This document shows, in pieces, positions 22,350 through 26,280 of a stretch of 64,000 nt of DNA. A model generated the notes under the pieces. That model made no database searches. It was not told the DNA's origin and worked only from the letters and a program-made list of their open reading frames with translations. Origin of the DNA: Fusobacterium mortiferum ATCC 9817 (GTDB taxonomy: Bacteria; Fusobacteriota; Fusobacteriia; Fusobacteriales; Fusobacteriaceae); NCBI RefSeq assembly GCF_000158195.2, contig NZ_GL987988.1, forward strand, positions 391,371-455,370, read 5' to 3'. The position numbers and the translations under genes were made by a program. Within the stretch, counting starts at the first letter, position 1. Each line of letters opens with the position of its first letter.

Positions 22350-22393
22350 CTCAAGAATGTTGAAAGTTTTAAAAACACTCTTGAGCTTTTTTA
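22350..22393. terminator. Bidirectional terminator between the hydrolase and alcohol dehydrogenase genes
   Basis: CTCAAGA (22350-22356) pairs with TCTTGAG (22379-22385), extended past one mismatch by TGTT/AACA. Plus strand continues CTTTTTTA; minus strand also has a T-run. Confidence 0.85.
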
Positions 22394-22413: not shown

Positions 22414-23580
22414 TTAATAAGCTTCTTTTAAAATAGTTAAAATTTCATCAGGAGTTAATTTTTTGTATCCTCCATCAAGAATTACAGAAGAGTTAGCTAT
22501 TTTAGGTAACATATCTTCAGTAGCTCCTACCTCCCTCAATGTAGTAGGGATACCTAACTCTTTTATAAATTCAGAAAGTTTTTCAATTCCAGCAAGAGCA
22601 ATCTCATCTTTAGTTAGATTTTTACTTTCAACTTTCCATATTTTTTCAGCAAATCTTACAAATTTATCTAAACCATATTTGTAAATATATTTATAGTAAG
22701 GGATAGAGATGATAGCTAGTCCAATTCCATGGGCACAGTCAGTATATGCTCCAAGTTGGTGCTCTATCATATGAACTTCCCAGTCCTGTGCTTTAGATAC
22801 TCCTGTAATTGTATTAAGACCAATAGTTGTACACCACATAATATTACTTCTTGCTTCGTAATCTTCAGGATTTTTTAAAGCTACTCTAGCATTATCAATA
22901 AGGGCTTCTATAACACCTTCTAGAATATAGTCAGTAGTGTTATTGTCATCTCCAGAAAAATATTGCTCCATAAGGTGAGAAAGGGTATCGAAAATTCCAC
23001 TTATCATTTGATATTTAGGAACTGTATAAGTATATTCAGGGTTTAATATAGAAAATTTGGGATAAACTTCAGGAGAAAAAACTCTTCCATTTTTCAACAT
23101 TTTCTCTTCATGAGTTATTACAGAACCACCATTCATTTCAGAACCAGTACCAGCCATTGTTAAAATACTTCCTACTGGAACAATTTTATTATTTACCTCT
23201 TCAAAGTTTATCCAATATTTTTCCCAAGCATCTCCATCACAGTATGCAGATACAGATATAGCTTTAGAACAATCTATAACTGAACCTCCACCTACTCCTA
23301 AAATTAAATCAACATTGTTTTCTCTAACAAGTCTTGCTCCTTCCATCATTTGATTATATGTTGGATTTGATTTTATTCCAGCTAATTCTACCACTTTTTT
23401 ATTAGATTCCTTTAAAATTTCAATGACTTTATCATAAAGTCCACTCTTTTTTATAGAGTTTTTTCCATATACTAAAAGAACAGTTTCTCCATAATTTTTT
23501 AACTCGTCTTTTAAATTATTAAGAGCAGTTTTTCCAAAATAAATTTTAGTTGGGTTATAGTAATTAAAATCAAATTTCAT
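22414..23580 (-). CDS. Iron-containing alcohol dehydrogenase (BdhA/YqhD type)
   Basis: NAD(P)H-dependent alcohol/aldehyde reductase of 388 residues, cytosolic. Seen: N-terminal FDFNYYNPTKIYFGK, the cofactor loop GVGGGSVIDCSK near residue 95, TMAGTGSEMN, and the metal-binding histidines in FDTLSHLMEQYF and DCAHGIGLA. This pattern fits butanol dehydrogenase and YqhD, enzymes that detoxify aldehydes or end alcohol fermentation. GGAGG precedes ATG. It is the second gene behind a cupin gene, 20 bp away, under a MerR-type promoter, which favours an electrophile or aldehyde stress role. Confidence 0.92.
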   Translation of the reverse strand: MKFDFNYYNPTKIYFGKTALNNLKDELKNYGETVLLVYGKNSIKKSGLYDKVIEILKESNKKVVELAGIKSNPTYNQMMEGARLVRENNVDLILGVGGGSVIDCSKAISVSAYCDGDAWEKYWINFEEVNNKIVPVGSILTMAGTGSEMNGGSVITHEEKMLKNGRVFSPEVYPKFSILNPEYTYTVPKYQMISGIFDTLSHLMEQYFSGDDNNTTDYILEGVIEALIDNARVALKNPEDYEARSNIMWCTTIGLNTITGVSKAQDWEVHMIEHQLGAYTDCAHGIGLAIISIPYYKYIYKYGLDKFVRFAEKIWKVESKNLTKDEIALAGIEKLSEFIKELGIPTTLREVGATEDMLPKIANSSVILDGGYKKLTPDEILTILKEAY

Positions 23581-23600: not shown

Positions 23601-24059
23601 TTATGATAATTTATTATACTCTTCATCAGTTACAGGTTCACACCACTCATTTGAACAGTTTTCTCCAGGTACTTCTACAGCTATATGACTAAACCAAGAA
23701 TCTTTTTTAGCTCCATGCCAATGCTTAACATTAGTTGGAATAGTAATTATCATACCAGGTTTTAGAGGGATAGCTTCTTTTCCTTCCTCTTGATACCAAC
23801 CTTCTCCAGCTGTACATATTAAAATTTGTCCTCCACCTTTAGTAGCATGGTGAATGTGCCAGTTATTATGACAACCAGGTTCAAAAGTAACATTTGCTAA
23901 AAAGACGCTAGAACTTCCTATCTCAGTAAGTGGATTTAAAAAAGAGTTTCCTACAAAATATTTGGCATAGGCATCATTAGGATTTCCTATTCCAAAGATA
24001 TTCATTTTTTCAAACTCATCCTTTTTTAAAATTTTATGATTAAGTTTTTCTTCTGTCAT
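23601..24059 (-). CDS. Cupin domain protein
   Basis: Single-domain cupin of 152 residues, cytosolic. Metal-binding motif 1 is CHNNWHIHHATKGGGQ (His-x-His followed by a conserved residue), motif 2 is PTNVKHWHGA, so the usual three histidines are kept. Cupins of this kind often travel with carboxymuconolactone-decarboxylase-like proteins, as here across the divergent promoter. First gene of the minus-strand transcript, with AGGAGAG before ATG and a 55-nt leader from the MerR-type promoter. Enzymatic activity is not known. Confidence 0.85.
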   Translation of the reverse strand: MTEEKLNHKILKKDEFEKMNIFGIGNPNDAYAKYFVGNSFLNPLTEIGSSSVFLANVTFEPGCHNNWHIHHATKGGGQILICTAGEGWYQEEGKEAIPLKPGMIITIPTNVKHWHGAKKDSWFSHIAVEVPGENCSNEWCEPVTDEEYNKLS

Positions 24060-24121
24060 TATATTTCTCTCCTATAAAGTTAATATAACTATTTTTTACT
24101 AATTTTTCTTTTATATTTGGA

Positions 24122-24152
24122 ATTATACTCTTTAGAGTTAACTCTAAGTCAA
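24122..24152 (-). promoter_or_regulatory. MerR-type promoter for cupin and alcohol dehydrogenase
   Basis: Minus strand: TTGACT (24147-24152), TATAAT (24122-24127), spacer 19 bp. A perfect 16-bp palindrome TTAGAGTTAACTCTAA (24132-24147) fills the spacer. The overlong spacer with a central dyad is the established signature of MerR-family activators. Confidence 0.8.
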
Positions 24153-24176
24153 GAGAAAAAATAAAAAAATAATAGC

Positions 24177-24207
24177 TTGACTTAGAGTGGACTCAAAGTA
24201 GTATGCT
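24177..24207 (+). promoter_or_regulatory. MerR-type promoter for the CMD operon
   Basis: Plus strand: TTGACT (24177-24182), TATGCT (24202-24207), spacer again 19 bp. The spacer carries CTTAGAGTGGACTCAAAG, the same dyad with one mismatch in the arms. It faces away from the minus-strand promoter, 24 bp between the -35 elements. Confidence 0.75.
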
Positions 24208-24300
24208 TTTATTAAGAAAAAGAAAAATAGTATAAATAATTTATCAAAGAAATTTTACTATTTAATTTATAATTATAAAATTTATATGGGAGGAATAAAA

Positions 24301-24903
24301 ATGACAAATAAAGATAAAAGTATTGTGGAGATTTCAATTTTTACAGCAATTGGAAATTTAAAAGAACTTGAAAAAAGTGTGAATCTTGGATTAGATAATG
24401 AACTTACTGTAAATGAGATAAAAGAGATTATGGTTCAACTTTATGCTTACTGTGGATTTCCACGTAGTTTAAACGCTTTAGGAGTACTTTCTAATACAGT
24501 GGATGAAAGAAAAGCTAGTGGTAAGGTAACAGAAGTGGGAAGAGAATCTACTCCTATCCCTAGTGACAGAAATTCATTAGTTTATGGGACTCAAGTTCAA
24601 ACAAAGATAGTTGGAATGGAAGTAAAAGGAGGAATATATGATTTTGCTCCAATGGCAGATAGATATTTAAAAGCTCATCTATTTGGAGATATTTTTGGGC
24701 AAGATATTTTAGATTATAGAACAAGAGAACTTGTAACAGTAGCAGCTCTTGCTTCAATGGATGGTGTAAATCCTCAACTTCAAGCCCATATTGGAATCAG
24801 TAAAAATGTTGGTGTAACAGATGATGAATTAAACGGAACTATTGAAGTATTAAAGGATAAATTAGGATTTGAAAAAGCTAATAATATAAAACAATTTTTA
24901 TAG
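24301..24903 (+). CDS. Carboxymuconolactone decarboxylase family protein (two CMD domains)
   Basis: Protein of 200 residues with two CMD repeats: the first around residues 15-65 (TVNEIKEIMVQLYAYCGFPRS) and the second around 125-195 (DYRTRELVTVAALASMDG...QAHIGISKNVG). In AhpD relatives the motif CxxC is catalytic; here only one cysteine occurs in YCGF, so it is not an AhpD-type peroxidase. ATG 24301 is chosen behind GGGAGG; an upstream in-frame ATG (24286) lies before that site. First gene of a three-gene transcript under a MerR-type promoter. Confidence 0.87.
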   Translation: MTNKDKSIVEISIFTAIGNLKELEKSVNLGLDNELTVNEIKEIMVQLYAYCGFPRSLNALGVLSNTVDERKASGKVTEVGRESTPIPSDRNSLVYGTQVQTKIVGMEVKGGIYDFAPMADRYLKAHLFGDIFGQDILDYRTRELVTVAALASMDGVNPQLQAHIGISKNVGVTDDELNGTIEVLKDKLGFEKANNIKQFL

Positions 24904-24927: not shown

Positions 24928-25368
24928 ATGAAAAAATTTTTAATAGTAGGTTTAGGAATTGTTTTATCAACACTGATTTATGGAGAGGAAAAAATGCTAA
25001 ATAAGATGAGATTTATATTTGATAATAGAGAGATAGTAGTAACTCTAGAAAAAAATAGTGCTACTAAAAGTTTATTGGGTCAACTCCCATTAGAATTAAA
25101 ATTTGAAAATTATGGAGGGATAGAAAAAATTAGTTATCTTCCTAAAGAGTTAGATATTAGTAATGCTCCTAAAAGTTGTACTTCAAAAACTTATGATTTA
25201 ACATACTATTCTCCCTGGGGAAATCTTGCTTTTTTTACAAAAGATTTTAGGCACTCTAATGGATTAATACCTTTAGGAAAGATTGAAAGTGGATTTGAAA
25301 ATTTAGAAGATATTGATAAAGCTTTAAGTGTAAGAATAGAGAAATTAGGAGATGAAATTTATGAATAA
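24928..25368 (+). CDS. Exported cyclophilin-like fold protein
   Basis: 146 residues: a signal-like hydrophobic segment KKFLIVGLGIVLSTLIYG, then a domain of the cyclophilin-like group (MRFIFDNREIVVTLEKNSATKSLLGQLP, then LDLTYYSPWGNLAFFTKDF-like strands and NGLIPLGKIESG). These domains lack proven isomerase activity and are frequently encoded beside CMD and cupin genes. AAAGGAGG precedes ATG, 24 nt after the CMD gene, and its end overlaps the next gene by 8 nt, so it is mid-operon. Export to periplasm is inferred from the N-terminus. Confidence 0.8.
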   Translation: MKKFLIVGLGIVLSTLIYGEEKMLNKMRFIFDNREIVVTLEKNSATKSLLGQLPLELKFENYGGIEKISYLPKELDISNAPKSCTSKTYDLTYYSPWGNLAFFTKDFRHSNGLIPLGKIESGFENLEDIDKALSVRIEKLGDEIYE

Positions 25369-26203
25369 AATTGAAAATCAAAATTTCGATAAGGAGAGAG
25401 CTCTATATAATTTAAAAGATACAGAGGTAATAAATTGTAATTTTGCTGGAATAGAAGATGGGGAGTCTGTTCTAAAAGAAGCAAGAAATGTAGTTGTAAA
25501 GAATTGTAATTTTTCTCTTCGTTATCCTATGTGGCACAATAGAAAATTTATTTTAGAAAATTCTAATTTAGATGAGTTATCAAGAGCTCCTATTTGGTAT
25601 TCAATAGATGGTGAAATTAAAAATAGTAAAATAAATAGTATAAAATGTTTAAGAGAGTGTAAAAATATAAAGGTTGAAAATTCAGATATAGTTTCACAGG
25701 AGTTTGGTTGGAAGTGTAAGAATATATTTTTAAAAGATACAAATATTGAGTCTGAATATTTTATGTTGGATTCAATTGATGTTAAATTAGAAAATGTTAA
25801 TTTTAAAGGAAAATACTCTTTCCAATATATTAAAAATTTAGATATTATTAATTGTAATTTAGATACAAAGGATGCTTTTTGGCATAGTGAGAATATTACA
25901 GTGAGAGATTCCGTTATAAAAGGAGAGTATTTAGGGTGGTTTTCTAAAAATCTAACTTTAATTAACTGTAAAATAATTGGTACCCAACCTCTATGTTATT
26001 GTGAAAATTTAAAATTGATAAATTGTGTTATGGAAGAAACTGATTTATCATTTGAATATTCAAGTGTTGAAGCTGATATAAAAGGATATATAAAATCATT
26101 AAAAAATGTCAAATCAGGTTTTGTTATTGCTGATGAAATTGGAGAGATTATAAATGAAGATTCAATTATGCCAACAGGAGCTGAGATAAAAATAAGAAAG
26201 TAA
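25361..26203 (+). CDS. DUF3737 family right-handed repeat protein
   Basis: 280-residue protein of repeating 'xxNCxFxxxxxxW' units (INCNFAG, KNCNFSLRYPMWH, INCNLDTKDAFWH, INCKIIG, INCVMEE), which suggests a right-handed beta-helix like pentapeptide-repeat proteins; this is the DUF3737 pattern. ATG 25361 lies 9 nt after AGGAG; an ATG at 25352 is too close to that site. It overlaps the cyclophilin-like gene by 8 nt. No enzyme motif or signal peptide. Role unknown; cotranscription with CMD suggests a stress-response accessory. Confidence 0.78.
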   Translation: MNKIENQNFDKERALYNLKDTEVINCNFAGIEDGESVLKEARNVVVKNCNFSLRYPMWHNRKFILENSNLDELSRAPIWYSIDGEIKNSKINSIKCLRECKNIKVENSDIVSQEFGWKCKNIFLKDTNIESEYFMLDSIDVKLENVNFKGKYSFQYIKNLDIINCNLDTKDAFWHSENITVRDSVIKGEYLGWFSKNLTLINCKIIGTQPLCYCENLKLINCVMEETDLSFEYSSVEADIKGYIKSLKNVKSGFVIADEIGEIINEDSIMPTGAEIKIRK

Positions 26204-26231: not shown

Positions 26232-26280
26232 AAAAAATTCAAGAATGATTTTTATTCTTTGAATGAAAGTCATTCTTGAA
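26232..26280. terminator. Terminator between the DUF3737 and citXG genes
   Basis: TTCAAGAATGA (26238-26248) pairs with TCATTCTTGAA (26270-26280). The minus-strand side has a clean T6 run, so it mainly ends the citrate-lyase-accessory operon; the plus side is T-poor. Confidence 0.8.

Follow-up and report, generated by a model that had tools for sequence, protein, structure and literature searches.

A single NmlR/AdhR-type regulator very probably controls three promoters in Fusobacterium mortiferum ATCC 9817, to judge from sequence comparisons, and these promoters would be activated by reactive electrophiles. Two of them form a divergent pair within the window (i.e., the whole stretch of DNA analyzed here; 64,000 nucleotides), and the third precedes the gene of the regulator itself. 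The most likely arrangement is a split NmlR-type regulon consisting of the regulator operon, an arm encoding a cupin and an iron-containing alcohol dehydrogenase (Fe-ADH), and an arm encoding a carboxymuconolactone-decarboxylase-like (CMD) protein, a cyclophilin-like protein, and a DUF3737 protein. This kind of control is known from NmlR and AdhR; the make-up of the regulon is distinctive in that the regulator is unlinked, the operators stand back to back, no AdhC was found, and DUF3737 and cyclophilin-like proteins would be members.

Two divergent promoters with 19-bp spacers

The two promoters lie in the intergenic region between the cupin gene (23601 to 24059, minus strand) and the CMD gene (24301 to 24903, plus strand). 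The promoter of the cupin-Fe-ADH arm (24122 to 24152, minus strand) consists of a -35 box, TTGACT (24152 to 24147), and a -10 box, TATAAT (24127 to 24122), separated by the 19-bp spacer TAGAGTTAACTCTAAAGAG, and direct reading of the sequence located the dyad GAGTTAACTC (24135 to 24144) within this spacer. Similarly, the promoter of the CMD arm (24177 to 24207, plus strand) has TTGACT (24177 to 24182), the 19-bp spacer TAGAGTGGACTCAAAGTAG, and TATGCT (24202 to 24207), with the dyad GAGTGGACTC read at 24185 to 24194. GAGT-N2-ACTC occupies the same register in both spacers, although the plus dyad is less symmetrical than the minus dyad. Between the two -35 boxes lie 24 bp, and the dyad centers are 50 bp apart. 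The first-pass annotation had described two divergent promoters with 19-bp spacers and a GAGT..ACTC dyad, and our reading confirmed them at identical coordinates. Spacers of 19 to 20 bp, with activation by DNA distortion, are described for MerR-type promoters in the available text of one report (PMC9909328). Both promoters have such a spacer, with a dyad between the -35 and -10 boxes.

The full promoter pattern (31 nt; -35 box, dyad, 19-bp spacer, and TAnnnT; up to three mismatches) matched the window only at these two promoters (0 and 1 mismatch), with a mean of 0.00 and a maximum of 0 matches in 100 dinucleotide shuffles of the window. A weight matrix derived from 68 operator sites of named loci from other lineages (among the best 80 of 580 loci) also detected exactly both promoter sites in the window. 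The scores of the minus site (33.9 bits), the plus site (39.2), and the regulator's own site (36.2) compare with a top score of 9.4 across 20 shuffled windows. A generic sigma-70 scan gave no discrimination (53 sites in the window versus 45.6 in shuffles) and gave the plus site a 16-bp spacer with TAGTAT as its -10 box instead; it missed the 19-bp geometry because only spacers of 16 to 18 bp were permitted.

Genes of the two arms

Behind the minus promoter lies the small cupin (152 aa; 23601 to 24059), with similarity to TM1010 (2f4p) and to the cupins 4bif/4uxa. Its best NCBIfam model was (R)-mandelonitrile lyase, with a score below the cut-off of that model. The Fe-ADH (388 aa; 22414 to 23580, minus strand) was YqhD/butanol-dehydrogenase-like in family and structure matches, and its nearest solved chains were 7w9x, 1vlj (butanol dehydrogenase), and Escherichia coli YqhD (1oj7). 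A hairpin followed by a T run (22350 to 22385, minus strand), which was read from the sequence and is absent from the hairpin scan list, probably marks the end of this arm.

On the plus strand, domain matches identified two CMD stretches in the first protein (24301 to 24903). Its start is more likely the 24301 ATG, which GGGAGG precedes, than the one in the open reading frame list (24286). The CMD protein is followed by a cyclophilin-like protein (PF18050; 24928 to 25368), whose N terminus looks by eye like a signal peptide, and by a DUF3737 protein (283 aa; 25352 to 26203) that overlaps the preceding frame by 17 bases. A terminator-like hairpin found by the hairpin scan (26238 to 26280, plus strand) closes the arm. 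We infer that all five window genes form one functional group. The literature searched contained no paper with DUF3737 and none combining CMD, cupin, and MerR.

The regulator gene and its own operator

The genome encodes five MerR_1 genes, all outside the window, which agrees with the remark of the first-pass annotation that no MerR gene was in sight. A genome-wide search (2.67 Mb) with the pattern TTGACTTRGAGTNNACTCYAA, allowing up to three mismatches, yielded seven matches (three with 0, 0, and 1 mismatch and four with 3), compared with one for the reversed control. When the -10 box was included in the pattern, the same three sites were obtained (0, 0, and 1 mismatch); the other three listed had 3 mismatches, and the reversed control gave 5 matches, so that 3-mismatch matches are at the control level. 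Such sites were rejected as regulon members because their counts were near that level; those at 878 kb and 1088 kb are both within frames.

Two of the three good sites are those in the window, and the third (TTGACT, 19 bp, and TATTGT) is located approximately 40 bp before the start of a MerR gene encoding 129 aa. This gene (G000:C2:350204) lies approximately 41 kb ahead of the window start, and its promoter site is 65,339 bases from the window sites. The first-pass annotation had proposed that one regulator encoded elsewhere acts on both promoters and had suggested searching the genome for further 19-bp-spacer sites and for a MerR gene carrying one. The search returned this gene, and the proposal is supported by its operator and by the pairing across the phylum and named lineages described below.

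Downstream of the regulator gene, the operon encodes a metallophosphatase, an FMN reductase, another PF18050 cyclophilin-like protein, and a hexapeptide transferase, behind which lies a flavodoxin gene; one protein family is therefore common to two arms of the regulon. The site before the regulator gene, which is also present in G001, G002, G003, G008, and G010, suggests autoregulation. One MerR gene of the genome (L005; C2 near 495 kb) is apparently split into frames of 72 and 118 aa.

Family of the regulator and its cysteine

The best NCBIfam model for the 129-aa regulator was NmlR (140.9 bits), followed by CueR (64.9 bits). Given that the score is below the cut-off of the NmlR equivalog (NF041849; 175) and that NmlR is still the best model, we regard the protein as an NmlR relative that would work like NmlR rather than filing it as NmlR. 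Its only domains are PF13411, PF00376, and PF09278, i.e., it is a short MerR helix-turn-helix protein without an extended sensor domain, as in the NmlR/AdhR clade. The best solved chains were 3gp4 and the HI_0186 structures 5d8c, 5d90, and 5e01 (E, ~1e-14 for the latter three).

Cys52 of the regulator is invariant across the eight aligned genus sequences and is present in all 80 named relatives (the best 80 of 580). The gene of the 129-aa regulator is the only one among the genome's own five MerR genes to encode Cys52; three others have Ser, His, and Ala, and the fourth, which is split into short frames, had no tblastn match to the regulator. The clade's conserved cysteine is Cys52 in AdhR and Cys54 in Haemophilus influenzae NmlR. 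According to a review of this clade, whose members are described as sensors of oxidative and/or carbonyl stress, the cysteine is conserved throughout and is required in AdhR, of which a C52A variant lost its formaldehyde response (PMC4776306). Judged by these sequence features, the regulator belongs with the NmlR/AdhR electrophile sensors.

We propose that a dimer of this regulator binds the GAGT-N2-ACTC dyads at its own promoter and at the divergent pair. When the signal is absent, the overlong spacers would hold the -35 and -10 boxes out of register, and transcription would be low; this expectation, like that of activation by DNA distortion, is taken from the MerR family. By analogy with AdhR/NmlR, Cys52 would be the sensor and would be modified by a reactive electrophile, with an aldehyde or dicarbonyl as the most likely candidate. 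The modified dimer would then kink and untwist the DNA, making both boxes usable by RNA polymerase. The genes thereby induced would be those for the cupin and the YqhD-like Fe-ADH, those for the CMD, cyclophilin-like, and DUF3737 proteins, and those of the operon headed by the regulator itself, with its FMN reductase, other cyclophilin-like protein, hexapeptide transferase, and further products. The Fe-ADH would probably reduce the aldehyde to an alcohol.

Pairing of regulator and operator across lineages

Of 580 confirmed named loci, the best 80 were used; they were picked only by similarity to the regulator protein. An operator (up to two mismatches) was present in 56 of these 80 loci, compared with 0.0 expected in shuffles, and 24 had none at two mismatches. 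In a spacer profile, for which the search pattern ended before the -10 box so that this box was not part of the query, TAnnnT occurred at spacer 19 in 68 of the 69 distinct sites of the named-locus set (best 80 of 580), in 29 of 29 sites from the phylum, and in 22 of 25 from the genus. At spacers 13 to 18 and 20, there were never more than two occurrences in any of the three sets. Occurrences at spacer 21 (17 of 29 in the phylum) and spacer 24 (up to 9 of 29) stem from an AT-rich run behind the box.

Among 98 genomes, 31 had both a site (up to one mismatch) and the regulator (E, ≤1e-15), 3 had only a site (G011, G050, and G053), 7 had only the regulator, and 57 had neither (Fisher P = 1.7e-15, with the genomes treated without correction for relatedness). 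The reversed-pattern control gave 0 matches in all 98 genomes. Taken together, these sequence data strongly support the regulator-operator pairing.

Each of the three genomes with a site only has its own features. G011 has exact sites, yet none of its four MerR genes encodes Cys52. In G053 (L256), the same operator is directly upstream of a different MerR gene with Ala at position 52; therefore, the operator is not exclusive to Cys52 regulators. The sole MerR gene of G050 has Cys at position 52 and adjoins a frame read by eye as cyclophilin-like. The exact operators of G011 (L114 and L115) precede an FMN-reductase-like frame and a 358-aa frame.

Conservation among genus mates

The regulator (87 to 98% identity) and an orthologue of the Fe-ADH (88 to 89%) are kept in the same three genus mates (G001, G002, and G003), the latter only in these, and all three have a site ahead of both genes. 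G004 and G005 (99% complete) have no site, no Cys52 regulator among the aligned MerR genes, and only a 40% Fe-ADH paralogue. The divergent pair is retained in G002 and G003, with the dyad centers 51 bp apart (versus 50 bp here). This near-constant distance could allow two regulator dimers to act together. The operators persist in both genomes, while the CMD frame has shrunk to 78 residues in G002 (L092) and to 64 in G003 (L095:2584-3807); no cupin was found in these divergent-pair stretches. In the G003 stretch, an aldo/keto reductase now lies behind the former CMD operator.

L178 and L184, two of the named loci, also have an operator before CMD. In G010, an operator occurs near the cupin, cyclophilin, and CMD genes but on their downstream side, oriented toward a flavodoxin gene; its strand rules it out as their driver, and no operator was found ahead of these genes. 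Likewise, the short flanks of CMD in G008 and G090 contained no operator. Given these negative results, CMD is a clear direct target here, in the remnants in G002 and G003, and in L178 and L184, but not phylum-wide.

Targets and the probable signal

The first-gene survey covered 98 sites, of which 95 had a gene within 300 bp, leaving 90 distinct first genes after duplicates were dropped. By Pfam, these comprised MerR (33), aldo/keto reductase (17), Flavodoxin_4 (6), Fe-ADH (5), FMN reductase (5), and CMD (3). Among 82 control genes drawn at random from these loci, MerR occurred 3 times and aldo/keto reductase was not among the families seen at least twice. YqhD is described as reducing aldehydes with NADPH and as conferring protection against glutaraldehyde (PMC8262776), and the CMD protein YraC as an AdhR target in Bacillus subtilis (PMC4776306).

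With regard to class III formaldehyde dehydrogenase (AdhC), TIGR02818 had no match in the genome at an E value of ≤0.001; the same model matched 13 of 14 control genomes, with scores over the cut-off in 3. In this respect, the regulon differs from an AdhC-type NmlR regulon, which includes a class III/glutathione-dependent formaldehyde dehydrogenase. An electrophile or aldehyde response fits both the regulator family (NmlR as the best match and Cys52) and the kinds of target, of which a reductive aldehyde-defense regulon is the simplest reading. By analogy with the regulator family and its targets, the signal is probably an aldehyde.

Alternative explanations

A rather unlikely alternative keeps the regulator but replaces the aldehyde with another signal, namely a metal or a stress of the disulfide, quinone, nitrosative, or redox kind. 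The NmlR clade senses oxidative and/or carbonyl stress (PMC4776306, in the text available), and flavodoxin, FMN reductase, and CMD as targets would suit general thiol or redox stress; against this, a YqhD-type Fe-ADH and aldo/keto reductases as the characteristic enzymes suit carbonyls best. Metal sensing was considered and found unsupported; the regulator has no extended sensor tail. CueR and MerR carry metal-binding cysteines and are the point of comparison for this missing tail.

We consider it quite improbable that another MerR protein of the genome (e.g., a large multidrug-type regulator) works these promoters. The genome has four further MerR_1 genes, the G011 sites occur with large MerR proteins only, and the G053 operator is paired with another MerR type. 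However, none of the four has an operator, the three good sites of the genome are all accounted for, and the residues aligned with Cys52 (Ser, His, or Ala in three, with no tblastn match for the fourth) differ from that of the 129-aa regulator. Least credible, with a probability close to negligible, is chance or the palindrome of an unrelated transcription factor in an AT-rich intergenic region. Palindromes are indeed common in AT-rich DNA, and the 14-nt dyad alone (two mismatches) was uninformative genome-wide (215 matches versus 194 for the reversed control), so that the longer pattern was needed. Nevertheless, full-geometry sites were expected 0.00 times, the model built from other lineages picked exactly both window sites, and the divergent pair is retained in two genus mates. 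Control by the 129-aa NmlR/AdhR-type regulator is the reading we retain.

Comparison with known regulons

One close counterpart is the AdhR (YraB) regulon of B. subtilis, in which adhA (alcohol dehydrogenase) and yraC (CMD protein) are controlled in response to formaldehyde and methylglyoxal by a small MerR protein with Cys52; there, the dehydrogenase is an AdhC homologue and the cysteine proteinase gene yraA is a further target (PMC4776306, available portion). By contrast, the enzyme here is a YqhD-like iron enzyme, no class III Adh was found in the genome, and 65 kb separate the regulator from its proposed targets. The NmlR regulons of Neisseria and Haemophilus share the MerR fold without a C-terminal sensor and the conserved cysteine; nmlR adjoins adhC-estD divergently in the arrangement described in that text (PMC4776306), whereas the regulator here heads a separate operon. 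The YqhC-YqhD-DkgA system of E. coli likewise counters toxic aldehydes with an inducible NADPH aldehyde reductase of the Fe type (PMC8262776). YqhC is an AraC-type activator, whereas the control geometry here is of the MerR type.

Tentatively, the regulon may be an NmlR-type regulon without AdhC in a presumed anaerobe, in which a reductive Fe-ADH replaces the oxidative, thiol-dependent formaldehyde arm and the cupin, CMD, two cyclophilin-like, and DUF3737 proteins form an electrophile-defense module. If this is true, it would be the first functional setting for DUF3737 and PF18050 proteins, which have no functional family name. The five window genes are provided with a candidate regulator, an operator, and a probable stress, and the predicted three-promoter regulon can be tested by one knock-out. 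The 31-base motif suffices to find candidate NmlR-like targets across the phylum and in clostridia and other lineages. In the literature searched, regulons of this type seem little described for these groups, and the papers found on Fusobacterium with NmlR concern other subjects.

Other genes behind the operator

In G008, G009, and G010 (L100, L107, and L110), the operator precedes a gene encoding 755 to 757 aa. NF009414 (fused dihydroorotate dehydrogenase B NAD-binding subunit/NADPH-dependent glutamate synthase) matched the copy in G009 above its cut-off, and the regulon may therefore include an NADPH-linked enzyme. Sites with two mismatches and the right geometry also precede genes encoding 584 to 585 aa in G007, G008, and G010 (L096, L102, and L112). 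The one scanned (L102) encodes 1-deoxy-D-xylulose-5-phosphate synthase, which is an unexpected target for an electrophile regulator.
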